Shown in pieces: positions 1,939 through 19,383 of a DNA stretch of 21,815 bases. This DNA comes from a virus, in IMG/VR virus record IMGVR_UViG_3300010373_000142, positions 1 to 21,815 of that record; one strand, written 5' to 3'. The notes beneath the pieces are model-generated. The model made no database searches. It saw nothing but the letters and a program-made list of their open reading frames with translations, and had not been told where the DNA came from. Within the stretch, counting starts at the first letter, position 1, and each line of letters opens with the position of its first letter. The position numbers and the translations under genes were made by a program.

Positions 1939-2691
1939 GTGAAACTTGCTGACTTGCTCAAGGTTGCCACGCCGTTCCTTGCGACGGACAAGAAACCCGA
2001 GGAATTGCAGGCTGCGATTCTGGCGGCCGACAAGAAAGCAAAGGATGCGGCTGGTTCGGGCCTGGGGGCACGGGAGCTGGAAGAGAAGGACAAGCCCGGC
2101 GCCCAGGATGCCGACATGGACAAGCGTGAGGCGGCCATGGACGAGCGCGAAGAGGCGATGGATGCGGCCGAGGAAAAGGCCGACAAGGACAAAGATGACC
2201 AGGCGGCCAAAGACCGCAAAGTCGCGCGCGACGCTCGTAAGGGTGCGCGTGATTCACGTAAGGGTGCTCGTGACTCGCGCGCCAAGGATCGCAATGACGA
2301 TCCGGAGCGCACCAACGATGAGGATATTATGTCCGGATCGGATCCCAGCACTCCTGGCGGCAATCGCGCGGGCGGCAAAACCGCTATCGATTCGGCCGAG
2401 GTAGACCGGCGTATCGCTGCGGCTGTGGCGTCGCGTGATGCGCTCCACACTGCGCGCACTGAGGTTGAACCGATCCTCGGGCGTACCACGTTCGACAGTG
2501 CTGGTGACACGTATCGTGCCGCGCTCAAGCAGCTTGATGTGACCACGGACGGCATTCCTGACAGTGCATTGCCGGCCATGCTGAAGTTGGCAAAGGACCG
2601 CGCAGCGGCTCAACCCGCCTCACCGGCCATGGACAGCGCCGCGGTTTCGGAACTGTCAAAACTCATTCCTGGCTACGGCCGGTTGCGTTAA
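1939..2691 (+). CDS. Probable head scaffolding protein (charged, coiled-coil)
   Basis: This is a 250-residue highly charged protein. Residues ~1-40 (KLADLLKVATPFLATDKKPE) are followed by a long Asp/Glu/Lys/Arg/Ala-rich segment predicted to be helical or disordered. Three Ala-Arg-Asp-[Ala/Ser]-Arg-Lys-Gly heptads follow, then a more globular C-terminus with VDRRIAAAVASRDALHTARTE and an ending like IPGYGRLR. This composition and position, directly before cement and capsid genes and after the protease, are typical of scaffold proteins. In relatives I remember, a similar segment forms the C-terminal part of the DUF2213 protein; here it is a separate gene in the same frame with several intervening stops. 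I chose GTG 1939 over GTG 1930 because AAGGG (1926-1930) sits eight bases before it. No assignment to a named family. Confidence 0.6.
   Translation: MKLADLLKVATPFLATDKKPEELQAAILAADKKAKDAAGSGLGARELEEKDKPGAQDADMDKREAAMDEREEAMDAAEEKADKDKDDQAAKDRKVARDARKGARDSRKGARDSRAKDRNDDPERTNDEDIMSGSDPSTPGGNRAGGKTAIDSAEVDRRIAAAVASRDALHTARTEVEPILGRTTFDSAGDTYRAALKQLDVTTDGIPDSALPAMLKLAKDRAAAQPASPAMDSAAVSELSKLIPGYGRLR
2224..2286 (+). repeat. Three tandem 21-bp units encoding A-R-D-x-R-K-G heptads
   Basis: Units at 2224-2244, 2245-2265 and 2266-2286 encode ARDARKG, ARDSRKG and ARDSRAK. The first two are nearly identical at the DNA level apart from the Ala/Ser codon and silent changes; the third has diverged. They sit in the charged region of the scaffold-like protein. 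Such repeats can expand or contract by slippage. Confidence 0.7.
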
Positions 2692-2706
2692 TCGGAGCCC
2701 TCGCAC

Positions 2707-3861
2707 ATGACTTTTCAGCGTGTCGTACAGAATACCCAGGCTCCTGCAGTCGCGGGTGATTTCGCTTCTACAAACCCCTTCGCGAGCGTGCTCGCCGGGC
2801 CTGGCGCGCTAGTAGCGCCCGCCTCGGGGCTGATCGTGGGTAATTTCGCGTGGGTTGGTCCCGCGGGCCAGGTCTCGCAATCATTCGTGGCTGGCTGGCA
2901 AATCGGCTTCCTGGGCCGCAATGAGCAAGCGCTCATCACACAGTTCCTGGGTGAGTCCACGCTTGTTGTCCCGCCAGGCTTCCCCGTCACGCTGTTCAAC
3001 GGCGGTGATTTTTGGGCCAAGTTCGCCGCGGGCGCTACAGTCGGCCAGAACGTATACGCGGACCCGAATGACGGAGCGCCGCTGGCGGGCGCAACAGCCC
3101 CCTCGCTGGGCGCCGGCACTGCGACCGCGGGTTTCAGTGGAACTGCAACGCTCAACGGTACCACAACCCTGAACGTGACCGTCGTCACACACGGCGTCAT
3201 CTCTCCAGGGGATGTGGTCGCGGATTCGACCACGCCGGGCAATATTCCGGCCGGCACAACGATCGTTTCCCAGCTGACCGGCATTGCGGGCGGCGTGGGC
3301 ACTTACCAAATGTCTGCGGTAGGCGTGGCGGCGGTTGGTGACACGGTCACGACCACCTCGAGCGTCATGCTTGTCACGGCGGTTGCGAGCGGATCGTTCA
3401 ACCTTGGCGACGTGTTCAGCGGCACCAACGTATCGGCGGGTACGTCGATTATCGGCCAGGCTACTCCGTTCTCGGGCGTTGGCACGATCACGGGTACGAC
3501 TACCCTTACGGTCACGTCGGTTACTCCGGGTACGGATCTGTTGCGCAAGGGTGCGACGATTACCGGCGCGGGTATCCCGGCCGGCACAACGATCAGCACT
3601 CAGACCAGCGGAACTCCGGGCGGCGTGGGTGTGTACACCCTCAGCGCGGCGTCCACGAATGCTGTAGGCGTCGCAGTGACGACCGCCGATAGCGCGGGCG
3701 GGACTGGTCTCTACACGATCAGCCCGGTACCGCAGACCTTTGGCGCGGCTGCAGCCCCGATCACGATTACTGTTGCCGGGACGGCTCAGGCTACTGGCTT
3801 CATGGTTCGCGGGAATTACAGCCCGCTGGCCAACGAGCTGGGCAAGATCAGCACTCTCTAA
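2707..3861 (+). CDS. Capsid structural cement/decoration protein with inserted beta-repeats
   Basis: This is a 384-residue protein. Residues 1-130 resemble phage structural cement proteins: VAGDFAS, 'VLAGPGALVAPASGLIVGNF', FLGRNEQALIT, and 'GDFWAKFAAGATVGQNVYAD'. The last ~35 residues (ITITVAGTAQATGFMVRGN to the end) look like the closing strands of the same domain. Between them, residues ~149-315 hold three related Gly/Thr/Val-rich units with G-T-T-T-L-x-V-T, [I/V]-x-x-G-D/A, PAGTTI and GGVGxY motifs. Cement proteins bind the outside of the capsid and stabilise it. The protein shares the GxFWxxF..G block with the gene at 4941, on the other side of the capsid gene. GGAG at 2694-2697 supports the start at 2707. 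Length is well above that of a plain cement protein because of the insertion. Confidence 0.72.
   Translation: MTFQRVVQNTQAPAVAGDFASTNPFASVLAGPGALVAPASGLIVGNFAWVGPAGQVSQSFVAGWQIGFLGRNEQALITQFLGESTLVVPPGFPVTLFNGGDFWAKFAAGATVGQNVYADPNDGAPLAGATAPSLGAGTATAGFSGTATLNGTTTLNVTVVTHGVISPGDVVADSTTPGNIPAGTTIVSQLTGIAGGVGTYQMSAVGVAAVGDTVTTTSSVMLVTAVASGSFNLGDVFSGTNVSAGTSIIGQATPFSGVGTITGTTTLTVTSVTPGTDLLRKGATITGAGIPAGTTISTQTSGTPGGVGVYTLSAASTNAVGVAVTTADSAGGTGLYTISPVPQTFGAAAAPITITVAGTAQATGFMVRGNYSPLANELGKISTL
3151..3651 (+). repeat. Degenerate tandem beta-repeat region inside the cement gene
   Basis: Encodes residues ~149-315 of the cement protein, three divergent units of ~50-57 residues. Units 1 and 3 share the exact 18-base word CCGGCCGGCACAACGATC at 3247-3264 and 3577-3594 (330 bases apart), and the GGCGGCGTGGG word before a Tyr codon. 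The middle unit (~218-260) is more diverged. Similar repeats occur in many phage decoration and fibre proteins. Confidence 0.65.
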
Positions 3862-3887
3862 GTATCAACGAGCACCGAGAAACCACG

Positions 3888-4925
3888 ATGTTGCGACGCA
3901 TTGCACTTGATTCTGCGGATCTTGGCCGCCGTTACGGTATCCATTTTATGCAGTCCTTCGGGCGCGAGCTTCAAGGGCTAACGCTGATGGATCCAGGCAG
4001 TGCCTACGATGCGCAGCCCGCGCTGGTAACTCAGGCAAATGCCGGCATTCCGTCGCTGTTCACCACCTACGTTGATCCCAAGATTATCGAAGTGCTCGTG
4101 CGCCCGACCAAGGCCGCTGAGCTGTATGGTGAAACCAAGAAAGGCACATGGGTGTCGGACACCGCGATGTTTCTCGTTGCGGAGCGCACCGGCGAAGTCG
4201 CGAGTTATGGCGACTTCTCGCAAGACGGGATGAGCAACGCGAACGTCAATTTCCCGCAGCGCCAGAGCTACCACTACCAGACCAATACTCGTTGGGGTGA
4301 GCGTGAACTTGCGCGTGCGGCCGAAGCCAAAATCGATTGGGCCAACCAAGTCAATCTTGGTTCGGTCCTCGCGCTGAACAAGTTTCAGAATCAGGCGTAT
4401 CTGTCGGGTATCGCGGGGTTGCAGAATTACGGCGGCACCAACGACCCGTCACTGCCGGCGCCGATCGCCCCGACCGTGAGTTGGTTCGGTGCGGACGGTG
4501 CGGTTATCTTCGCGGATGTCCAGCGCATCGTTCTGCAGATGGTGCAGCAAGGCAACGGCCTTGTGGATGCTGAGTCGGATTTCACCATGGGAATCAGCCC
4601 TGGTAACGTGTTAAATTTCAACAACACGAACCAGTTCAACGTCAACGTGTTCGATCAGATCAAGAAAAACTACCCGAATCTGAAAATCGTTACGATTCCG
4701 GAATTCGCTCTGAACGGCGGCGGCAGCGCGGGCGGCACAGAGCTGGTTCAGTTGATCGCGAACAACGTCGAAGGACAGCGCACTTGCGAGGCGGCGTTCA
4801 CCGAGAAGATGCGAGCGCACGCAATGGTGACGAAAACCTCTTCGTGGGAACAGAAGAAAAGCCAAGGCACTTGGGGTGTGATTTTCTATCGCCCTGTGTT
4901 CGTGGCTCAGATGTACGGCGCGTAA
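3888..4925 (+). CDS. Major capsid protein, DUF2184 type
   Basis: This is a 345-residue protein that forms the icosahedral shell; expected HK97 fold by family. Recognised features are GRRYGIHFMQSFGREL at the N-terminus, 'NAGIPSLFTTYVDPKIIEVL' with 'PTKAAELYGETKKGTW', 'NVNFPQRQSYHYQTNTRWGE', and SGIAGLQNYGGTNDPSLPAP. The end, SQGTWGVIFYRPVFVAQM, is typical of the family. Length is usual for DUF2184. The gene follows the cement gene by 26 bases, and a strong hairpin lies just past its stop, which may limit readthrough. The Shine-Dalgarno sequence before ATG 3888 is weak (GAG-type), which is surprising for the most abundant virion protein and may suggest translational coupling. Confidence 0.88.
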   Translation: MLRRIALDSADLGRRYGIHFMQSFGRELQGLTLMDPGSAYDAQPALVTQANAGIPSLFTTYVDPKIIEVLVRPTKAAELYGETKKGTWVSDTAMFLVAERTGEVASYGDFSQDGMSNANVNFPQRQSYHYQTNTRWGERELARAAEAKIDWANQVNLGSVLALNKFQNQAYLSGIAGLQNYGGTNDPSLPAPIAPTVSWFGADGAVIFADVQRIVLQMVQQGNGLVDAESDFTMGISPGNVLNFNNTNQFNVNVFDQIKKNYPNLKIVTIPEFALNGGGSAGGTELVQLIANNVEGQRTCEAAFTEKMRAHAMVTKTSSWEQKKSQGTWGVIFYRPVFVAQMYGA

Positions 4926-4940
4926 AGCGTCCGCACGTGT

Positions 4941-5510
4941 GTGATTGGTAACTCAGGCCCCTTCGGCGTGTACGAGGGGGCCTTTGCATCTCGAGTAATC
5001 GGTCGAAATCTCGAAGCGCTCGCCCCTTTCGCTTCCGGCCTGTCCGGCCCTGGCACGTGGCGCGCGGGAGACGGTGGATTACTACAAGGTCGGTTTGGTT
5101 GGGGCAACCCCGACACCGGCCTAGTTCTCAACATTCCCTCCACGCCGGCCGATGCACTTGGCGTAGTAATTCCCCTTCAATCAGTCAATGGCGCTAACGG
5201 CGGCGTAGTGGGTGGTCCCGCGGCATTTGGCGGCCCTCAAGCGCGCTGGACATGGCAGACATGGGATAAGGCGGCTCGCGCGTGGCGGCTACGCGCCGGG
5301 CTCGTCGTTACGCTGATGTCTAGCGGAAATTTTTGGTTGCGCTTTCCCAGCGGCGCAAGCTATGGTAGCCGCGTTTACGCTTCACCCACAGATGGATCAG
5401 CGTTATCCGGTCCCGTAGGCGGCGCTGTGCAAACCCCTTGGTTTGTGTGTAGTGAGGCGGGGCCGGGCAATTTAGCAATGGTAAGCTCGAGTGCATTATT
5501 TGGAGGTTGA
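4941..5510 (+). CDS. Second cement/decoration-like head protein
   Basis: This 189-residue protein is related to the cement protein at 2707. The block GNFWLRFPSGASYGSRVYAS... (residues 129-157) matches residues 99-127 of that protein at 15 of 29 positions. The N-terminal part (RVIGRN, LSGPGTWRAGDGGLLQGRFG) and the C-terminal part (PWFVCSEAGPGNLAMVSSSA) also follow the same plan. It lacks the inserted repeats. It probably binds the capsid surface or a vertex; direct role unknown. Starts are uncertain: GTG 4941 gives no good ribosome site, and GTG 4968 is an alternative; the conserved part starts near residue 16. A strong hairpin covers this start region, so translation may be controlled by RNA structure. 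Confidence 0.65.
   Translation: MIGNSGPFGVYEGAFASRVIGRNLEALAPFASGLSGPGTWRAGDGGLLQGRFGWGNPDTGLVLNIPSTPADALGVVIPLQSVNGANGGVVGGPAAFGGPQARWTWQTWDKAARAWRLRAGLVVTLMSSGNFWLRFPSGASYGSRVYASPTDGSALSGPVGGAVQTPWFVCSEAGPGNLAMVSSSALFGG
4955..4985 (+). terminator. Strong hairpin after the capsid gene, possible attenuator/terminator
   Basis: Left arm AGGCCCCTTCG (4955-4965) pairs with CGAGGGGGCCT (4973-4983) to give an 11-bp stem with one G-U pair and a 7-base loop, then only a short T run (TTTG). It starts 30 bases after the capsid stop. It lies within the first codons of the following gene if that gene starts at 4941. Stem strength suits a partial terminator; the short U tract argues against full termination. 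Confidence 0.45.
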
Positions 5511-5511
5511 A

Positions 5512-5967
5512 ATGGCAAACGAAGTTGTAGCAGTTGGGTGTCGGCTCCCGTTGGGGCTCGTATTGGAAGTCGGTCTGCAGACCACCGTAAATGGCGGTCC
5601 GCACAATCGCCCGATCGAGCAGGTACGCAAGCTGGGCAGCTACCAGCGTTTCGTGCTTCGCGGTACGCGCGCGCATACGGCGGATATGCGACGTCAGGGT
5701 ATCGCCACGCCGGCTATGTTGAATGTCCAGCCGTTCATCAATCCGAACGTGCCTCGGGCACTGTGGGATCAATGGGTGAAGGAACACAAGGACTCGCCGG
5801 TGCTGAAAAACAACGAAATTTTCGAAGTCAAGGGCGGAGGCGAGGCGAATAGCAAAGCTGCGTCGTTGGATGCCATGGCAGCGTCGCCCGCGCCGTTCAG
5901 TCCCGTAGATCCATCCAAACCAGTCAAATTTGGGCAGGATGAAGTTACTAAGGCCGTGTTTGACTGA
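5512..5967 (+). CDS. Conserved phage head-region protein of unknown function
   Basis: This is a 151-residue protein. The start at ATG 5512 is well supported by GGAGG at 5502-5506, five bases upstream; the earlier in-frame GTG at 5491 would overlap the preceding gene without a ribosome site. The N-terminus, CRLPLGLVLEVG, resembles small phage proteins beginning with a short beta-sheet domain encoded near capsid genes. The middle has VPRALWDQWVKEHKDSPVLK, and the C-terminal third is Ala/Ser/Pro-rich and probably disordered. There is no TM segment or signal peptide. Position between the cement and DUF4054 genes suggests a minor head or decoration protein. Function not recognised. Confidence 0.6.
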   Translation: MANEVVAVGCRLPLGLVLEVGLQTTVNGGPHNRPIEQVRKLGSYQRFVLRGTRAHTADMRRQGIATPAMLNVQPFINPNVPRALWDQWVKEHKDSPVLKNNEIFEVKGGGEANSKAASLDAMAASPAPFSPVDPSKPVKFGQDEVTKAVFD

Positions 5968-5976
5968 GATTCTGCG

Positions 5977-6483
5977 ATGCCTGTTGTTCCATGCCCAGCG
6001 CCATGTCCACCTATCGTTACCGGGGTAGTTCAATTCTCTAGTAGCGAATTCGTGGCGTTGTGGCCGGAATTCACGGGCATCGCACTTGGAGCACAGCAGA
6101 ACGCGTTTGCTATCGCGACGCTGTTGCTCAACAACTCCTGCGGATCTTTAGTGCAAGATGCGAATTTACGCATGACGCTCTTGTATCTGTTGACCGCCCA
6201 TATCTGCTTCTTGAACTCTGGCACGAACGACGGAGCGGGCAAGATAACACCCGCGCCGGGAATTGTGGGCCGAATAGATTCCGCTAGCGAAGGATCGGTG
6301 AGCGTCTCTGCGACATACGCTTCGACGGTCGGGCAGAGCATGGCGTTTTTCATCCAAACGAAGTACGGCGCACAGTTCTGGCAGATGACTGCGCAGTATC
6401 GGACCGCACGTTACATTGGGCCACCTTCATTTGGTCCGAATGGCCCCGGATATCCTTGGCCCGGCTCAGATTGGCTGGAATGA
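5977..6483 (+). CDS. DUF4054 head-tail connector (neck) protein
   Basis: This is a 168-residue protein. DUF4054 proteins are head-completion/connector components that sit under the portal. Seen: 'FVALWPEFTGIALGAQQ', a hydrophobic helix LRMTLLYLLTAHICFL, then GIVGRIDSASEGSVSVSATY and 'TKYGAQFWQMTAQYRTARYI' followed by PPSFGPNGPG, which match the order of family features. The N-terminus is Pro/Cys-rich (PVVPCPAPCPP), an odd extension. It is placed as expected between head and tail genes; the stop overlaps the next ATG (ATGA at 6480). Confidence 0.75.
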   Translation: MPVVPCPAPCPPIVTGVVQFSSSEFVALWPEFTGIALGAQQNAFAIATLLLNNSCGSLVQDANLRMTLLYLLTAHICFLNSGTNDGAGKITPAPGIVGRIDSASEGSVSVSATYASTVGQSMAFFIQTKYGAQFWQMTAQYRTARYIGPPSFGPNGPGYPWPGSDWLE

Positions 6484-10420: not shown

Positions 10421-10598
10421 GATAGATTACGTCAACGTATCCAAGTTTATAGGAATGTTGGTTTCGAGTGGTAAGGCAACGCTGATCGAGCTGCAGACTG
10501 TGTACGGTGTCAAGGACGCGTATGATTTGTTCGAGATCGTTGCGGTTGATTTAACAAACCATCGGAAGCTAACAGAACATGTCCGGAACCGTACTTGA
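10368..10598 (+). CDS. Tail assembly chaperone, -1 frame extension
   Basis: This is the downstream half of the chaperone pair, translated after a -1 shift at 10362-10368. The combined product spans 9988-10598 and would be 203 residues: 127 from the first frame and 76 from the second. The extension carries SKFIGMLVSSGKATLIELQT and VYGVKDAYDLFEIVAVD, close to the usual second-ORF signature (a helix, then E-L-x-x-x-Y-x-x-x-D-x-Y-D-L-x-E). An independent start at GTG 10329 is possible, but no ribosome site is evident, so frameshifting is the better explanation. It overlaps the tape measure start (10579) by 20 bases. Confidence 0.75.
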   Translation, partial: FLGRLAPDFGRVKRVAGLIDYVNVSKFIGMLVSSGKATLIELQTVYGVKDAYDLFEIVAVDLTNHRKLTEHVRNRT

Positions 10599-12135
10599 CT
10601 CGTTTGTTGTTACGGTAGGGTTGGATCCGGCCGCATACAAACAAGGACAAAAAGAAGCCGACAAGCTCCAAGAGCAAACCGTCGAGGGGCTCAAGCGTAC
10701 TGGCACGCAAGCCACCAACGCGCAGCGCAAAGCAGAACAGGACGCAGCCCGAGATCGCCGCAAGGCTGCGCGCGACAAAGAGCGCGAGGAGCGGCTAGCT
10801 CAGATCCGCGCACAAAAGGCCCGCAAGCAGCAAGAGAAGGAAACTCTGGAAAGCGCGGAGCAGTTGCAATCCAAGCTCGTGGGGATTGCCAAGACTGCCG
10901 CGGGTATGGCGCTAGGTTTCGAGGGACTTACCGGTCTCATAAACTTCGTAGGCAACCTGAACCAAGCCAACGCGGACCTTGGCCGTACCGCATCGAATCT
11001 GGATCTCAGTTCCCACGCGTTGAACCGCGCGGGTAACGCCGTTGAGCTTGCAGGAGGTAAAGCCGAGGACGCACAAGCAGCGTTCGCACAGCTCTCGCAG
11101 TCTGTAACCAACCGTAACCTCGGGTTGGGGCTTTCGCCGCTATTGATACGCCTGCAGCGCGAGCAAGTAGCGTACATCGATCAGTCCACGGGTAAAATGC
11201 GTGATCAAGTGCAAGTGTTTGAAGACCTTGCCAACGCCATGAGCCAGTATGATCGTGCCACAGCCCACAACTATCTCGTCAACGCTGGTCTGTCTGAGGG
11301 GTTCATAAATTACCTGCTGACGGAGAAGTCTGCCCGCGAAGCTTTGAATGCTGAGGCGGAGAAATCCAACAGACTGACGGACACATCCACGAAGCGGGCT
11401 GCGGCAGCTCAGAAGAATTTCCGTGCATTCAAGCAGGACGTGACGGGCGGCGTTGGTGCCGTGTGGGATAAGATCCTGTCAGGCGATTGGTCCATAGCCC
11501 CCGCTACTCAGTTACCCGAACTAATGGATACGTGGGAAGGACCGCCAGGTAGCGCCAACCGGAAGCCTCGCAATAATCCGGGCAATCTTAAAGAGGTTGG
11601 AGGCAAGCGATTTCGCGATTTTAGCACGGAAGCGGAGGGTATTGCCGCGGCTAGTCATCAGCTCGATTTGTACGCTCGTCGTGGAATCAACACTATCGCC
11701 GGCATCATTAAGACCTACGAGGGACGCGACGCACCCGGCAATCGTAACAACGTCCCGGCGTATATCTCCGATGTGGCGAGGCGTACGGGTATTCCGGCCG
11801 ATCGCCCGCTGACTCCCGAGGACCGCGTTGCAGTGTTGCGTGCAATGTTTTGGCACGAGGGATCTGGAGATTTCGACCCGGCGAAGATAGCCGCGGCCAT
11901 TGGGGCGGGCGGTGCAGCTGCTACCGTGTCGCAAGGATTGACCCCATCGCCGGGCGTTGTGTCGTCCGCTACTAACACTTCGTCATCTCAGAGTGTTAGG
12001 TACGATACGCAGATCGGATCCATAAGCGTCCACACGCAAGCGACAGACGCGGATGGTATCGCCAACGGGATTGGGGGCGCTATTCAACGCAAGAATATCG
12101 GCATGGCGTCACAGGCTGACAACGGGCAATCGTAA
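10579..12135 (+). CDS. Tape measure protein with C-terminal lytic-type domain
   Basis: This is a 518-residue protein. The N-terminus 'VLDSFVVTVGLDPAAYKQGQ' is typical of tape measure proteins; residues ~24-105 are a Lys/Glu/Gln-rich coiled coil, and ~105-125 is a hydrophobic Gly/Ala segment. Residues ~331-440 (RNNPGNLKEVGGKRF, GIAAASHQLDLYARRGINT, IIKTYEGRDAPGN, 'PAYISDVARRTGI', VLRAMFWHEGSG) match the NNPGNL-type domain found in virion-associated muralytic proteins such as structural protein P5-like enzymes. The protein sets tail length and probably helps to breach peptidoglycan during infection. It is short for a tape measure, suggesting a short tail. Position after the chaperones fits. The stop overlaps the next ATG (TAATG). 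Confidence 0.78.
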   Translation: MSGTVLDSFVVTVGLDPAAYKQGQKEADKLQEQTVEGLKRTGTQATNAQRKAEQDAARDRRKAARDKEREERLAQIRAQKARKQQEKETLESAEQLQSKLVGIAKTAAGMALGFEGLTGLINFVGNLNQANADLGRTASNLDLSSHALNRAGNAVELAGGKAEDAQAAFAQLSQSVTNRNLGLGLSPLLIRLQREQVAYIDQSTGKMRDQVQVFEDLANAMSQYDRATAHNYLVNAGLSEGFINYLLTEKSAREALNAEAEKSNRLTDTSTKRAAAAQKNFRAFKQDVTGGVGAVWDKILSGDWSIAPATQLPELMDTWEGPPGSANRKPRNNPGNLKEVGGKRFRDFSTEAEGIAAASHQLDLYARRGINTIAGIIKTYEGRDAPGNRNNVPAYISDVARRTGIPADRPLTPEDRVAVLRAMFWHEGSGDFDPAKIAAAIGAGGAAATVSQGLTPSPGVVSSATNTSSSQSVRYDTQIGSISVHTQATDADGIANGIGGAIQRKNIGMASQADNGQS

Positions 12136-14096: not shown

Positions 14097-14749
14097 CGAC
14101 TGGCGTTTTTGGAATGCAGGATCCGGCCACGACGGCCAATGAGTACAACGCGCTTGTATTCGTGATACGACAGCTCCTCGGGCGCGTACAGACGGTCTCG
14201 CTTGTCCGGGTGGAGAAGTGCTCGAACTCGGGCGGCGTCACCCCCGTGGGCACCGTAGACATGACTGTGCTGGCCAATCTGATGACCGGTAACCGGCAAC
14301 CGGTGCCGCATGGGATCTTGACCAATCGCCCCTATCTAAGAGTTCAGGGCGGCGCTAATGCGGTCATCATTGACCCGCAGCCAGGGGATTTGGGGCTCGC
14401 GGTTTTCTGCTCTCGAGATAGCTCTGCAGTCATTGCCGCGAAGGGGCCGGCGAATCCCGGTAGTTTCCGCCAATTTGATTGGGCTGACGGGTTATACTTG
14501 GGTGGAGTCCTAAATGGCACCCCCGAGCAATACGTCCAGATGTCTGCGGCGGGAATTTCGATCGTATCACCAACGCAGATAACGCTACAAGCTCCTACCG
14601 TGAACATTCAAGCCTCGTCTAGTGTGACGATCAATAGCCCAGCCAATACCATTGAGGGTGGGGGCACATCCATCGATGGTAAGCCGTTCTTGCCGCACCA
14701 TCATGGCGGCGTACAGACTGGCGGCAGCAATACGGGCGGCGTTACGTGA
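14093..14749 (+). CDS. Baseplate spike, Gp138-like membrane-piercing protein
   Basis: This is a 218-residue protein. The N-terminal part contains an OB-fold-type region (~35-125) with 'GVTPVGTVDMTVLANLMTGN', then VPHGILTNRPYLRVQGGANA and 'AVIIDPQPGDLGLAVFCSRD'. Residues ~150-195 form short beta-helix-type repeats (GISIVSPTQITLQAPTVNIQ, SSSVTINSPANT). The tip at 201-206 has H202-H203-H204 before Gly-Gly, an HxH arrangement that in related spikes binds iron at the apex. It pierces the outer membrane on sheath contraction. Starts at GTG 14093 in a GTGA junction. The order hub-spike-gp25-J supports this. Confidence 0.82.
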   Translation: MTTGVFGMQDPATTANEYNALVFVIRQLLGRVQTVSLVRVEKCSNSGGVTPVGTVDMTVLANLMTGNRQPVPHGILTNRPYLRVQGGANAVIIDPQPGDLGLAVFCSRDSSAVIAAKGPANPGSFRQFDWADGLYLGGVLNGTPEQYVQMSAAGISIVSPTQITLQAPTVNIQASSSVTINSPANTIEGGGTSIDGKPFLPHHHGGVQTGGSNTGGVT

Positions 14750-15102
14750 ACACGTTACTCCTCGCCGTAGACACGTGGGATCTTGTGCTAGATGCCTCGG
14801 GAAATATTGCCATGGCGTCAGATCCATACTCGATCGCGCAAGATGTCGCAAGCGCGTTGCGGTTGTTCCTTGGCGAGCTATGGTACGACACGACTAAGGG
14901 TATTCCGTATTTGCAACAAATTCTAGGTGAGACGCCGCCCCTCATCATGTTCCAACAGTACTTAGAGGATGCTGCGCTTACCGTGCCACAGGTTGCTACG
15001 GCCGTCTGCGTCGTGGAATCATTCAACACGCAAACACGCACCGTTGTGGGACAAGTGCAGTTCACAACGACTAACGGCCAAACGGGAACCGTATCGCTAT
15101 GA
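14746..15102 (+). CDS. Baseplate wedge protein, gp25/W-like
   Basis: This is a 118-residue protein. The signature block is 'IAMASDPYSIAQDVASALRL' followed by FLGELWYDTTKGIPYLQQIL, typical of the gp25/gpW (lysozyme-named) wedge family. It joins the inner baseplate to the sheath and starts sheath polymerisation. The C-terminus has a predicted beta hairpin, RTVVGQVQFTTTNGQTGTV. GTG start in a GTGA junction with the spike gene; the stop overlaps the next gene as ATGA. Confidence 0.87.
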   Translation: MNTLLLAVDTWDLVLDASGNIAMASDPYSIAQDVASALRLFLGELWYDTTKGIPYLQQILGETPPLIMFQQYLEDAALTVPQVATAVCVVESFNTQTRTVVGQVQFTTTNGQTGTVSL

Positions 15103-16316
15103 CCGACGTTACCAGCGTTCCTCCCATTGAGTTTACCCCCACGGGTTTGGTAGTCCCGCAGGAATCGGCCATATTGGCGGGCGTACAAACGGACTACAAT
15201 GCCGCGTTTGGTGGTAACCTTAACCCCGCGCTCGAGACTCCACAGGGGCAGCTTGCAACATCTACCTCTGCAGTCGTTGCAAACAACAACGCAGTGTTTG
15301 CCGAATTCGTCAATCAGGTAGATCCGGACAACGCGCAAGGGTTCATGCAAGACGCCATTGGGCGTATATATTTCCTGACTCGCTCGCCAGGAGCCCCCAC
15401 GGCTGTGCAATGTCTGTGTGTGGGTGCGAACGGCACTGTCATACCCGTGGGGGCGCTAGCTCAGGATACGAGCGGCAACATCTACATTTGCACACAACCC
15501 GGCACTATCCCAATTGGCGGCTCGATCACACTATCGTTTGCGAACATCGTGAACGGACCCGTTGCCTGTCCGGCAAACACTCTGACGAAGATTTACCAAG
15601 CTATATCTGGCTGGGATACCATCAATAACGTAGCCGATGGCATTATCGGACGAAATGTTGAATCGCGCGCGGAGTTCGAGTTTCGCCGTAAGCAGTCAGT
15701 CGCGCTCAATGCGCACGGCTCGCTAGATTCCATTTACGCCGCGGTGTTCAACGTTGCAAACGTTCTTGACGTGTACGTCACAGAAAACGTTACGGGCGGG
15801 ACTATCACCGTGGGAGCTACTAACTACCCGTTGGTTGCGCACTCGCTCTATGTTGGCGTGGCTGGCGGCGCTGCGGCTGATATAGCTCAAGCTATCTGGA
15901 GCAAAAAGGACGTAGGTTGCAATTATAACGGCAACACGACTGTGTCTGTAACGGATACCGTAGGTTACAATCCTCCATATCCCACGTACGCGGTTACATT
16001 CAACATACTGACCAACACGCCTATATTGTTTGCGGTACAGATCGCGAACACACCCAACTTGCCGGCCGATATTGTAACGTTGGTTAAGAACGCAATCATT
16101 GCGTCATTCAATGGTACGGATGGGAGCGCCAAGTGTCGCGCGGGTGCGGTCATCCTGGCCGCTAAATTTTACGCCGGCATTATCGCCATAGGCCCGCAAG
16201 TAGAAGTGCTCTCCATTTTGTTGGGAAGTTCATCTCCCACGTTGACTAGCCAGTTGATGGGAATTGATCAAGAGCCCACCATTACGGCCGGCAATATAGC
16301 GGTGTCACTGGTATGA
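15099..16316 (+). CDS. Baseplate J-like wedge protein (gp6/P2 gpJ family)
   Basis: This is a 405-residue protein. Seen: 'ALETPQGQLATSTSAVVANN' and FMQDAIGRIYFLTRSPGAPT near the N-terminus; 'QPGTIPIGGSITLSFANIVN' and 'ISGWDTINNVADGIIGRNVE'; SRAEFEFRRKQSVALNAHGS; then ANVLDVYVTENVTGG and C-terminal repeats around LVKNAIIASFNGTDG. These follow the Baseplate_J family. It forms the wedge dimer ring around the hub. ATGA junctions on both ends. Some strands are Val/Thr-rich but the length is normal. Confidence 0.86.
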   Translation: MTDVTSVPPIEFTPTGLVVPQESAILAGVQTDYNAAFGGNLNPALETPQGQLATSTSAVVANNNAVFAEFVNQVDPDNAQGFMQDAIGRIYFLTRSPGAPTAVQCLCVGANGTVIPVGALAQDTSGNIYICTQPGTIPIGGSITLSFANIVNGPVACPANTLTKIYQAISGWDTINNVADGIIGRNVESRAEFEFRRKQSVALNAHGSLDSIYAAVFNVANVLDVYVTENVTGGTITVGATNYPLVAHSLYVGVAGGAAADIAQAIWSKKDVGCNYNGNTTVSVTDTVGYNPPYPTYAVTFNILTNTPILFAVQIANTPNLPADIVTLVKNAIIASFNGTDGSAKCRAGAVILAAKFYAGIIAIGPQVEVLSILLGSSSPTLTSQLMGIDQEPTITAGNIAVSLV

Positions 16317-18169
16317 CTTGGAACCGCGTTGACGGAGGCGTTTTCCCTGGCTCGCAGGTTGTTGGCGATGTCGCCATTATTGACGCCAACCATATCGCTG
16401 TTGTTACGCAGAACGGCCACACTGGATATTCTTCGGATGGCGGCGCCACGTGGGTTAATTCTGGTGTTCCGCTAGCGGGAGTTACATCCTGCGATTCCTG
16501 TAGGTATGCCGTAGGCGTAATTCTTACGTTGTGCGAGGTTGTTGGGGGTCGAAAGCTCGCCCGTTCCGTGGATAACGGCCACACGTGGAGTGACGTGACG
16601 CCAGCCGCGTTTACCGGCTCTACTGATTTACTCAATCAGCCTCAATACTCTACGTCGCTCTCGCTTTGGCTCATGTTCTCCAGTTTGGTAGGGGCGCCTC
16701 CGTCCACGGTATATACGTCTCCTGACGGCATAACATGGACAGAAGTTGATTTTTCCAATGGTGACGACACCTTATATAATTTTCTCATACTCGGCGCAGA
16801 CATAGTTGATGTGGCGGGAGCGTGCGTAGTTGTAGGGACTGCAGGCGTAGGCGTTACGTCATTCGGCACTATATTACGCAGCACAGATGGCACAACGTGG
16901 GATGTCGTGCTATCCGAAGTTTCAGGGTTAGCAGTATTTCACTCTATTGTCAAAGTAGGTGGCGTGTTAAACGCCGTGGGTTCGGAGGGGCCGGACAATG
17001 CTACTCAATGGAATTACGCGTCTACAGACAATGGAGTTACGTGGACCGAAAAAACAAACCCAAGTAGTTCCTCACATCCGTGGGCTACTACCCAAGCCTT
17101 CGTTGGCTCAAAATTTATAACCGGATTTGATCCCGATACTTTCCAATCTGTATCCAACTCAACAGATGTTACGAATTGGACTATAGCCCCGATTAGTCAG
17201 GCGGCATTTACGCTATCGTCAGACGGGACTACGGCTTACGCCTACGGTGGCAATGACATATTGGCTAGCACAGATGCTGTTACGTGGGATGAAGAGTTAA
17301 CCTTCGAATCTTCCGGATTCATTCAACAGATTAGGATAGGATCGGGCATAACTATCGCCGTGGGCATAGGCGACGGTGACGGTGGTATTTGGCTACGCAA
17401 CGGCAGCGGACCCGTACTCATCGCAGTACCGGATGTTGTGGGAGACACCCTATCAACAGCCGGTACTGTCGTAACAGCTGCCACTCTCGTCGTGGGCACG
17501 CTGACTCCCGTGTACAATCCTTCGGTGCCATTTGGTTCCGTAGTTTCGCAGAGTCCTATAGCGGGCACCATGGTGTTAGCTGGAACGCCCGTATCGCTGA
17601 CGATCTCTGCTCCCGCGGAAGCTGGCTTCGATGTATTTGCCACAGTTATAAGTCAGTACGCTAATAGCCCCACGCTGTTGCAGCTTGTTCAGAATATTGA
17701 GACATACCTAGACCAGACGATCAATTTCGCGCAGTTTTACGCTTACATCTGGAATGTTGCTACAGCCGTGGGATTCGGTCTCGATATTTGGGGCAAGATT
17801 GTTGGTGTTGGCCGCACGCTATTGGTAGAGGGTACTGTCACTATCCTTGGCGACGACGATTACCGCACGCTCGTGTTGACTAAAGCGCTAGCTAACATCC
17901 TGGCCACTACGGCGCCGTCGTTTAACCAATTGCTGAGTAACTTGTTTCCAGGCCAGAGATGTTACGTTACTGACCTTGGCAATATGCAAATGGGTGTCGT
18001 ATTTGAATTTCTACTGACGCCCGTGCAATTGGCTATTGTGACGCAATCGGGAGTGTTTCCGCATCCTGCGGGGGTCAAAACGAACATCATTTCTATCGAC
18101 GCGGCGCACACGTTTGGTTTCAACGGTTCAGGATTGCAGCCCTTTAATCAGGGTACGTTCTACAATTAG
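16313..18169 (+). CDS. Baseplate DUF2612 protein fused to an Asp-box beta-propeller and PASTA domain
   Basis: This is a 618-residue protein of three parts. Residues 1-~365 have seven Asp-box motifs (S-x-D-x-G-x-T-W or degenerate): S41-W47, S85-W92, S136-W142, S190-W196, S237-W244, S283-W289 and S319-W325, which suggests a seven-bladed propeller. Residues ~369-434 read as a PASTA domain (VPDVVGDTLSTAG, VVSQSPIAGTMVLAGT, VSLTIS). Residues ~445-618 are DUF2612, with 'YANSPTLLQLVQNIETYLDQ', 'VGFGLDIWGKIVGVGR', DDDYRTLVLTKALANI and a FGFNGSGLQPF end. DUF2612 is the small wedge protein next to gpJ in related phages (gpI-like place), usually a third of this size. The additions may bind surface glycans or peptidoglycan (inference). 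The gene sits between gpJ and the tail fibre. Confidence 0.78.
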   Translation: MTWNRVDGGVFPGSQVVGDVAIIDANHIAVVTQNGHTGYSSDGGATWVNSGVPLAGVTSCDSCRYAVGVILTLCEVVGGRKLARSVDNGHTWSDVTPAAFTGSTDLLNQPQYSTSLSLWLMFSSLVGAPPSTVYTSPDGITWTEVDFSNGDDTLYNFLILGADIVDVAGACVVVGTAGVGVTSFGTILRSTDGTTWDVVLSEVSGLAVFHSIVKVGGVLNAVGSEGPDNATQWNYASTDNGVTWTEKTNPSSSSHPWATTQAFVGSKFITGFDPDTFQSVSNSTDVTNWTIAPISQAAFTLSSDGTTAYAYGGNDILASTDAVTWDEELTFESSGFIQQIRIGSGITIAVGIGDGDGGIWLRNGSGPVLIAVPDVVGDTLSTAGTVVTAATLVVGTLTPVYNPSVPFGSVVSQSPIAGTMVLAGTPVSLTISAPAEAGFDVFATVISQYANSPTLLQLVQNIETYLDQTINFAQFYAYIWNVATAVGFGLDIWGKIVGVGRTLLVEGTVTILGDDDYRTLVLTKALANILATTAPSFNQLLSNLFPGQRCYVTDLGNMQMGVVFEFLLTPVQLAIVTQSGVFPHPAGVKTNIISIDAAHTFGFNGSGLQPFNQGTFYN

Positions 18170-18180
18170 AGGTTTGTGAG

Positions 18181-19383
18181 ATGCCCATTCCTACGCCAGA
18201 TTTAATAACCGAAGCGTTTGGCGCGAGCGCTGTTGATATAACTTTACCTATTCCGGTAGCCGACCCAGGCGGCGGTGCGGCATCGTTTACGCTGGGGTTT
18301 CCGCATGTCACGAAGCTGCCAATTAGTAGCGGCGGTGTTCCGCCTGACGTGGAGGATGTAAACGGCATCCTTCACATGGTGTCGGCGTATGCCGCGTATC
18401 TTGGCGCGGGCCAGCTGTTCCCGTTCAACGCGACGCTCGCCGCAGCCATGGGTGGATACGCCAATGATGCGCTTATTTCGATGGCGGACGGTAAGGGATA
18501 CTGGCGTTGCGTGACGGCAAACACAACAGTTAATCCGGATACGCCCACGCCACCTTCGTTAGATTGGGTACCGCTGGGGTGCACGGAAGAAATCTCCATA
18601 CCAGTAACGACGGGTACGCGTGTATTGTCCGCAGCGGAAGCTCGTTGTTCCACTATCATCATAACGGGCACACAGTCCGGAGACGTAGTCATACAAGTCC
18701 CGTTGTGGGCTGGAGCACGTTGGAAGTTCATAAACAACGTTGCTTTGACCGGTCTTAGCGTTACCGTAAAAGGGCCATCCGGAACGGGATTTGTGCTTCA
18801 GCAATCAACTGCTTCCGTGGGGGATCTCAGCTCGCCTGTAGGCATATGGTGCGATGGCACCAATGTGTACGGCGAGTTCGCGTCTCTTCATTCGCCTCAG
18901 CTCCAGGGAAGTCCGACATGCCCTTTACAAACACCAGGCAATAACTCCACGCTAATTGCTAATTGCCACTACGTGGATAGTGCCGGATTTGCTCCAGAAG
19001 CTTCTCCAACGTTTACCGGAAACCCCACGGCTCCGACACAATCGGCTGGAGACTCTAGCACTAAATTGGCTACTACGGCGTTTGTAAACCCTCCAGGCTC
19101 GGTGGTTACTGGTGGCGGTCCGTGGAACGAAGTTCGCGCCAGCGGAGCCATCGAAAAATGGGGTAAAGCTACATACACAACTAACACCGGGGCGCAATCG
19201 GTTGTATTCTCTACCGCGTTTCCCACCGCATGCGAAGTCGTCATGTTTTCCGAGGAGGCTGCTTCTATCGGTTGGGATACGTGGATCGTCGCCGGTTCGA
19301 TCAGCACGACAGGTTTCCAGTTCAATGATGATGCAGCTTCGGGCAATACCGTAACCCTCCATTGGCGCGCGATAGGACATTGA
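18181..19383 (+). CDS. Tail fibre protein
   Basis: This is a 400-residue protein. Residues ~35-130 carry an N-terminal baseplate-attachment pattern (GGVPPDVEDVNGILHMVSAY, 'LGAGQLFPFNATLAAAMGGY', MADGKGYWRCVTANTTVNPD). Residues ~276-302 have the common fibre repeat TFTGNPTAPTQSAGDSSTKL followed by ATTAFV. Residues ~310-400, with 'ASGAIEKWGKATYTTNTG' and VTLHWRAIGH at the end, match the gp53-like C-terminal domain of tail fibres. The fibre tip probably binds the host surface. GAGG upstream, about eight bases away, supports ATG 18181. No chaperone gene follows. The middle (~140-235) has Thr/Val-rich beta structure and is of unknown type. Confidence 0.82.
   Translation: MPIPTPDLITEAFGASAVDITLPIPVADPGGGAASFTLGFPHVTKLPISSGGVPPDVEDVNGILHMVSAYAAYLGAGQLFPFNATLAAAMGGYANDALISMADGKGYWRCVTANTTVNPDTPTPPSLDWVPLGCTEEISIPVTTGTRVLSAAEARCSTIIITGTQSGDVVIQVPLWAGARWKFINNVALTGLSVTVKGPSGTGFVLQQSTASVGDLSSPVGIWCDGTNVYGEFASLHSPQLQGSPTCPLQTPGNNSTLIANCHYVDSAGFAPEASPTFTGNPTAPTQSAGDSSTKLATTAFVNPPGSVVTGGGPWNEVRASGAIEKWGKATYTTNTGAQSVVFSTAFPTACEVVMFSEEAASIGWDTWIVAGSISTTGFQFNDDAASGNTVTLHWRAIGH

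Follow-up and report, generated by a model that had tools for sequence, protein, structure and literature searches.

The 618-residue protein encoded at positions 16313–18169 (+) of the window, that is, the whole stretch of DNA analysed here (21,815 nucleotides of the IMG/VR virus record IMGVR_UViG_3300010373_000142), is a baseplate wedge protein of the DUF2612 type which carries an Asp-box β-propeller and a PASTA domain ahead of the wedge domain. It is probably a gp7-like wedge of a minimal contractile phage equipped with its own adhesin, six propellers on PASTA stalks taking the place of one fibre set. Fold, placement and recurrence of the protein are well supported. The single parts are known and their combination is apparently undescribed, no description of a PASTA domain or a propeller joined to a baseplate wedge having been found in the open-access literature; it belongs to a recurrent scheme of head, stalk and anchor. 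The features of the gene and of its neighbours are the following:

14746–15102 (+), gp25-like wedge protein/sheath initiator (phrog_120)
15099–16316 (+), baseplate J/gp47-like wedge protein, the expected dimer partner (Pfam Baseplate_J, 2e-8; phrog_6)
16313–18169 (+), propeller–PASTA–DUF2612 fusion protein, 618 residues (open frame; Pfam; ATG over the J stop)
16313–17410 (+), Asp-box β-propeller head, residues 1–366 (AlphaFold2; VIA; profile matches to GH74 enzymes and sialidases)
16430–16453 (+), Asp-box 1, SSDGGATW, residues 40–47
16565–16588 (+), Asp-box 2, SVDNGHTW, residues 85–92
16718–16738 (+), Asp-box 3, SPDGITW, residues 136–142
16880–16900 (+), Asp-box 4, STDGTTW, residues 190–196
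17021–17044 (+), Asp-box 5, STDNGVTW, residues 237–244
17159–17179 (+), degenerate Asp-box 6, STDVTNW, residues 283–289
17267–17287 (+), degenerate Asp-box 7, STDAVTW, residues 319–325
17423–17608 (+), PASTA domain, residues 371–432, proposed stalk (Pfam E=4e-12; pLDDT 93–98; VIA Z 12.5)
17627–18169 (+), DUF2612 wedge domain, residues about 439–618 and stop codon (Pfam E=2e-42; phrog_587; VIA)
17816–17863 (+), short turn TLLVEGTVTILGDDDY, residues 502–517, at the position of the fibre-attachment loop (alignments; papers on XM1, E217 and Pa193)
18113–18166 (+), C-terminal fibre site FGFNGSGLQPFNQGTFYN, residues 601–618, kept (alignment; the C-terminal region of XM1 gp17 binds spikes)
18181–19383 (+), tail fibre gene directly downstream of the fusion (phrog_12796 tail fibre, 3e-36; Gp53-like_C)

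The frame is free of internal stops and its ATG shares the atga at 16313–16316 with the stop codon of the baseplate J gene, a tight J/DUF2612 junction also seen in several cultured relatives. The gene occupies the usual DUF2612 slot, directly flanked by the genes for baseplate J and the tail fibre, an order also found in cultured phages. Head and tail genes of a contractile phage whose simple baseplate is of the Pam3/XM1/AP22 type are present in the window (capsid, sheath, tape measure, Pam3_gp18-like plug, hub, gp25-like protein, baseplate J, fusion, tail fibre and GH108 endolysin), and this 21.8-kb record is probably a fragment. An assembly or frame error joining two genes, which the preliminary description had named as a possible flaw, was rejected as the origin of the fusion because the start codon lies over the J stop and separate contigs show the same architecture. 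The fusion in a single frame proposed there is upheld by one 618-residue open frame and by structure prediction, which recovered all three folds, propeller, PASTA and DUF2612. Elsewhere in the window two ORFs in the same frame (622–1866 and 1930–2691, +), split by an in-frame stop, match the front and the back of one head maturation protease family (phrog_2229, 6–191 and 205–424); a minor head protein (2707–3861, +) has a long repetitive C-terminal tail past its 146-residue PHROG match, a second, shorter paralogue of its family being located at 4941–5510; and the short tape measure protein (10579–12135, +, 518 residues) contains an endolysin-like stretch at residues 332–477 (phrog_873).

The C-terminal domain matched DUF2612 (PF11041) with 145.5 bits against a cut-off of 23.5, and its model, a high-confidence fold, gave VIA Z values of 11.3 to XM1 gp17 and 10.6 to Pam3 gp23. 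The alignments showed two similar segments in DUF2612 proteins, an internal FGF...PF..PFYxG and a terminal FGF...PFNxGxFY. In XM1 gp17, residues 80–106 and 201–242 each sit inside a tail spike, there being twelve spikes in all (PMC10457771), and residues 76–123 in E217 and 80–113 in Pa193 constitute the fibre attachment loop (PMC10329688, PMC11042391). The window protein contains 16 residues between R501 and R518 compared to about 43–61 in its relatives, and therefore the internal loop FGF...PFYxG is, as judged from the aligned sequences, deleted. Of the complete DUF2612 domain described previously, the Pfam match, the fold, the gene slot and the C-terminal site were found, and the internal fibre loop was missing. 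The assignment to DUF2612 stands despite this loss, the loop being a variable trait which is common in the DUF2612 set, does not define it and is missing from five other members. The nearest relative (L138, sister at 97–99% support) exhibits the same loop loss, keeps the C-terminal motif and contains one PASTA domain, with a separate 562-residue ORF at the place expected for the fused head. This ORF (2303–3988) has no family match and lies between J and the PASTA–DUF2612 gene (4001–4846), the start of which contains repeats of an LLETG/LLEN motif.

The head includes five strict and two degenerate Asp-boxes with a regular spacing of 36–54 residues; the Asp-box pattern gave seven matches (overlaps counted), whereas 1000 shuffles averaged 0.8 matches and never gave more than 5. 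The Pfam BNR match of the fusion protein was weak when taken alone (E=0.003, below the cut-off), and a profile built from seven head sequences matched in the PDB the GH74 xyloglucanases (3e-12) and then sialidases, HCF136 and sortilin. A full-length model from a mixed alignment gave a low-confidence propeller, and the head was therefore folded alone, using an alignment of 23 diverse sequences; for residues 1–366 AlphaFold2 gave a pLDDT of 79.8 and a pTM of 0.83. Against propeller structures this model reached a VIA Z of about 25 over about 317 residues, the top matches including the designed eight-bladed Tako8, and Cake8, Rsa4, Sqt1, Fbw7/Cdc4 and BamB, the last five of which we take to be eight-bladed propellers as well. 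Since the best PDB matches of the model are eight-bladed folds, the predicted ring probably has eight blades despite the seven Asp-box positions, the last of them probably completed by the TWN strand at the N-terminus. A seven-bladed ring was rejected on the same ground, seven motifs not implying seven blades. The seven-Asp-box propeller reported earlier is correct as to the propeller fold and the seven motif positions, two motifs being degenerate and the model eight-bladed.

Recurrence was examined in 160 DUF2612 proteins, non-redundant at 90%, which form a biased sample as they were gathered by similarity: 25 contained one to four PASTA domains, 8 had other heads and 127 were unfused. The search for the same fusion elsewhere was successful, a propeller with one to three PASTA domains and DUF2612 being present in the same gene slot in six other non-redundant viral proteins on separate IMG/VR contigs (L140/L060, L144/L259, L145, L147, L156/L087 and L161), such as those of 703 (L060/L140) and 718 residues (L087/L156) with two or three PASTA domains; the architecture is shared with other viruses at 31–41% identity. 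The heads found on PASTA/DUF2612 were propellers (7), Laminin_G_3 lectins (7 by Pfam, others being similar; L206, L258, L270, L271, L285, L321 and L324, the last slightly below the Pfam cut-off) and folds bearing no Pfam name. In the DUF2612 tree the propeller protein L147 pairs with the LamG protein L258 (SH-aLRT 93), and headless proteins occur among headed ones; head changes are frequent, their number being uncertain with many forks lacking resolution. Related viruses keep the DUF2612 anchor and exchange the head. The window fusion is not unique, as DUF2612 proteins with swapped heads recur.

The same fusion was not detected in cultured phages, the query with propeller and PASTA giving six matches with E of 2 or worse in 50,697 phage records; the query also gave one weak plasmid match. 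Protein searches of these records returned many DUF2612 proteins, none with this head, and the dozen annotated ones that were inspected are about 195–242 residues long and located between J and the fibre. The phi1402 protein gp32, considered as a possible relative, is a separate 402-residue protein without DUF2612 and was discarded. Some further arrangements were observed. A more divergent wedge (L214, 3398–4930) has DUF2612 first (8e-11) and the propeller C-terminal, the reverse of the order in the window, and the joining is apparently independent of that described here; its next ORF (4934–6073) is a second protein with propeller-like repeats. In Achromobacter genomes and viral contigs (L154, L100, L046, L176 and L167) DUF2612 bears a different head of about 270 residues, which matches the tail-protein family phrog_5939, and no PASTA. 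Upstream of position 3833 of L148 the PASTA part is apparently in two frames, which suggests a frameshift or a sequencing error.

The codon usage of the propeller, considered AT-rich in the preliminary description and taken there as a hint of recent acquisition, is a weak point: GC3 is 0.49 in the propeller, 0.53 in the fibre gene and 0.56 in the DUF2612 part, and the total GC of the propeller (0.513) is above that of the DUF2612 part (0.488). Recent acquisition finds no clear signal in this composition and was rejected as unsupported, the architecture recurring in other viruses at the identity given above.

Receptor binding, which we infer for the head, is its likeliest role because unrelated heads, lectins included, change places on a conserved anchor and most relatives are headless. 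The earlier proposal that the baseplate carries a recognition head apart from the tail fibre is supported. The Asp-box propeller would most likely recognize a surface glycan. Alternatively, it could be an enzyme at the baseplate, a glycan hydrolase or lyase which removes capsule or O-antigen instead of binding passively. Many phage spikes break down glycans, and the GH74 xyloglucanases and sialidases are the closest PDB profile matches of the head; however, a sialidase appears unlikely from the sequence because the RIP motif is absent and the head contains only seven Arg. The GH74 catalytic Asp pair is situated between two tandem propellers and has no equivalent in the single 366-residue propeller, family searches gave no family-level enzyme match for the head, and the LamG lectin heads at the same position suggest binding. 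An enzymatic propeller is in our opinion unlikely.

The PASTA domain of the preliminary description was confirmed by Pfam (PF03793, 46.3 bits against a cut-off of 23.2) and by the fold of the model, with a VIA Z of 12.5 to the PASTA of PrkC. The function of cell-wall sensor that had been attached to it fits less well: one to four PASTA copies occur across the fusions, in nearly all of them between the variable heads and the anchor, and for this reason a spacer or stalk is more likely. A pure spacer does not account for the headless PASTA–DUF2612 proteins L141 and L142 (two of the 25 PASTA fusions), which keep a binding role conceivable. It could be argued from these two proteins, from the true PASTA fold and from the fact that the best-known PASTA domains attach to cell-wall fragments, that the domain binds peptidoglycan and, by sensing the cell wall, sets off contraction or steadies it, with the propeller in a secondary role. 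This seems quite unlikely to us, the number and position of the copies being spacer-like; moreover, the cultured relatives, which point to Gram-negative hosts, infect Gram-negative bacteria, where peptidoglycan is unexposed during adsorption. That the propeller is a structural decoration which strengthens the baseplate and does not bind the host is very improbable, since, although some phage baseplates have accessory structural domains, unrelated folds including lectins swap as heads on a conserved anchor, and 127 of the 160 DUF2612 proteins examined are headless, the head thus being unneeded for assembly.

The loss of a fibre site was compared with the presence of the fusion. Exactly one site was missing in 17 of the 25 PASTA fusions (15 without the C-terminal site and two without the loop, the remaining eight having both) and in 27 of the 127 unfused proteins (23 and four, respectively, with 100 having both), giving a Fisher p=1e-5 from which relatedness was not removed. 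None of these DUF2612 proteins lacked both sites. On the tree only two to three supported independent pairs of fusion and site loss occurred and a sign test was not significant; a trade-off between fusion and fibre site is put forward as a hypothesis, the independent events being few and site loss occurring also in unfused proteins. Such a trade-off predicts a symmetry of six heads and six fibres versus twelve fibres.

The adhesin-bearing wedge may be pictured as follows. As in XM1, each wedge would contain one copy of the protein and the baseplate six, the C-terminal DUF2612 domain docking with two copies of J, and the head would be displayed six times because the DUF2612 core forms, by homology, a (J)2-wedge module present in six copies per baseplate. 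The single PASTA domain would act as a stiff spacer which holds the propeller out. With the internal loop that grips one fibre in relatives deleted, as the alignment shows, the C-terminal fibre site is the one left, and the virion would show six propellers and one fibre set instead of two fibre sets. A pull on the propeller could be transmitted through the DUF2612 core to the wedge and the sheath initiator, similarly to what was proposed for the fibres of XM1 and E217.

These structures look like an overlooked route for phages to change their attachment target, tailed-phage host range being usually traced to fibre tips. If wedges bear exchangeable adhesins, automated host-range prediction based only on fibres misses them, and such adhesins may carry mere labels like 'DUF2612' or 'structural protein'. 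A wider proposal, which we regard as possible and somewhat doubtful, is that in widespread uncultured minimal myophages the wedge has been turned into a receptor-binding protein, with swappable heads on PASTA stalks and one docking site lost, host range changing by head swap and not through the fibre tips.

The comparison with known systems showed that the head shares the Asp-box repeat and the propeller fold with GH74 xyloglucanases, sialidases and HCF136/Ycf48, and differs from them in the lack of a detectable enzyme signature and in a model that fits eight blades. The PASTA domain has the same fold as those of PknB, PrkC and PBP2x (Z up to 12.5), and is placed here, in a phage structural protein, like a spacer that separates head from anchor. 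XM1 gp17 (PDB 7kh1), a gp7-like baseplate wedge, shares the DUF2612 fold and the C-terminal fibre site and is present in one copy per wedge, as is expected by homology of the window protein; it consists of 242 residues, is headless and contains both spike sites (80–106 and 201–242), whereas in the window protein 438 residues of head and stalk are added and the first site is missing. In the Pbunavirus proteins E217 gp45 and Pa193 gp46 (8env, 9b45) a DUF2612-type N-terminal domain occurs in a (J)2-wedge triplex and holds the fibre on the internal loop, which is missing here; their extra mass follows the wedge domain, while that of the window protein precedes it.

Variants of GP075 of Pseudomonas phage K8, likewise a DUF2612 protein, bind the LPS core and widen the host range, the commonest change being a duplication of APWYSVG (PMC9887876), an experimental precedent for a part of DUF2612 wedges in adsorption. 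The APWYSVG sequence occurs in the loop of a 243-residue homologue in PDB 9zd7, and the K8 change T239A is near the C-terminus of these 243 residues. In contrast to the window protein, GP075 has neither propeller nor PASTA and gains binding through point changes or the seven-residue duplication; by these it was experimentally shown to become a second receptor-binding protein.
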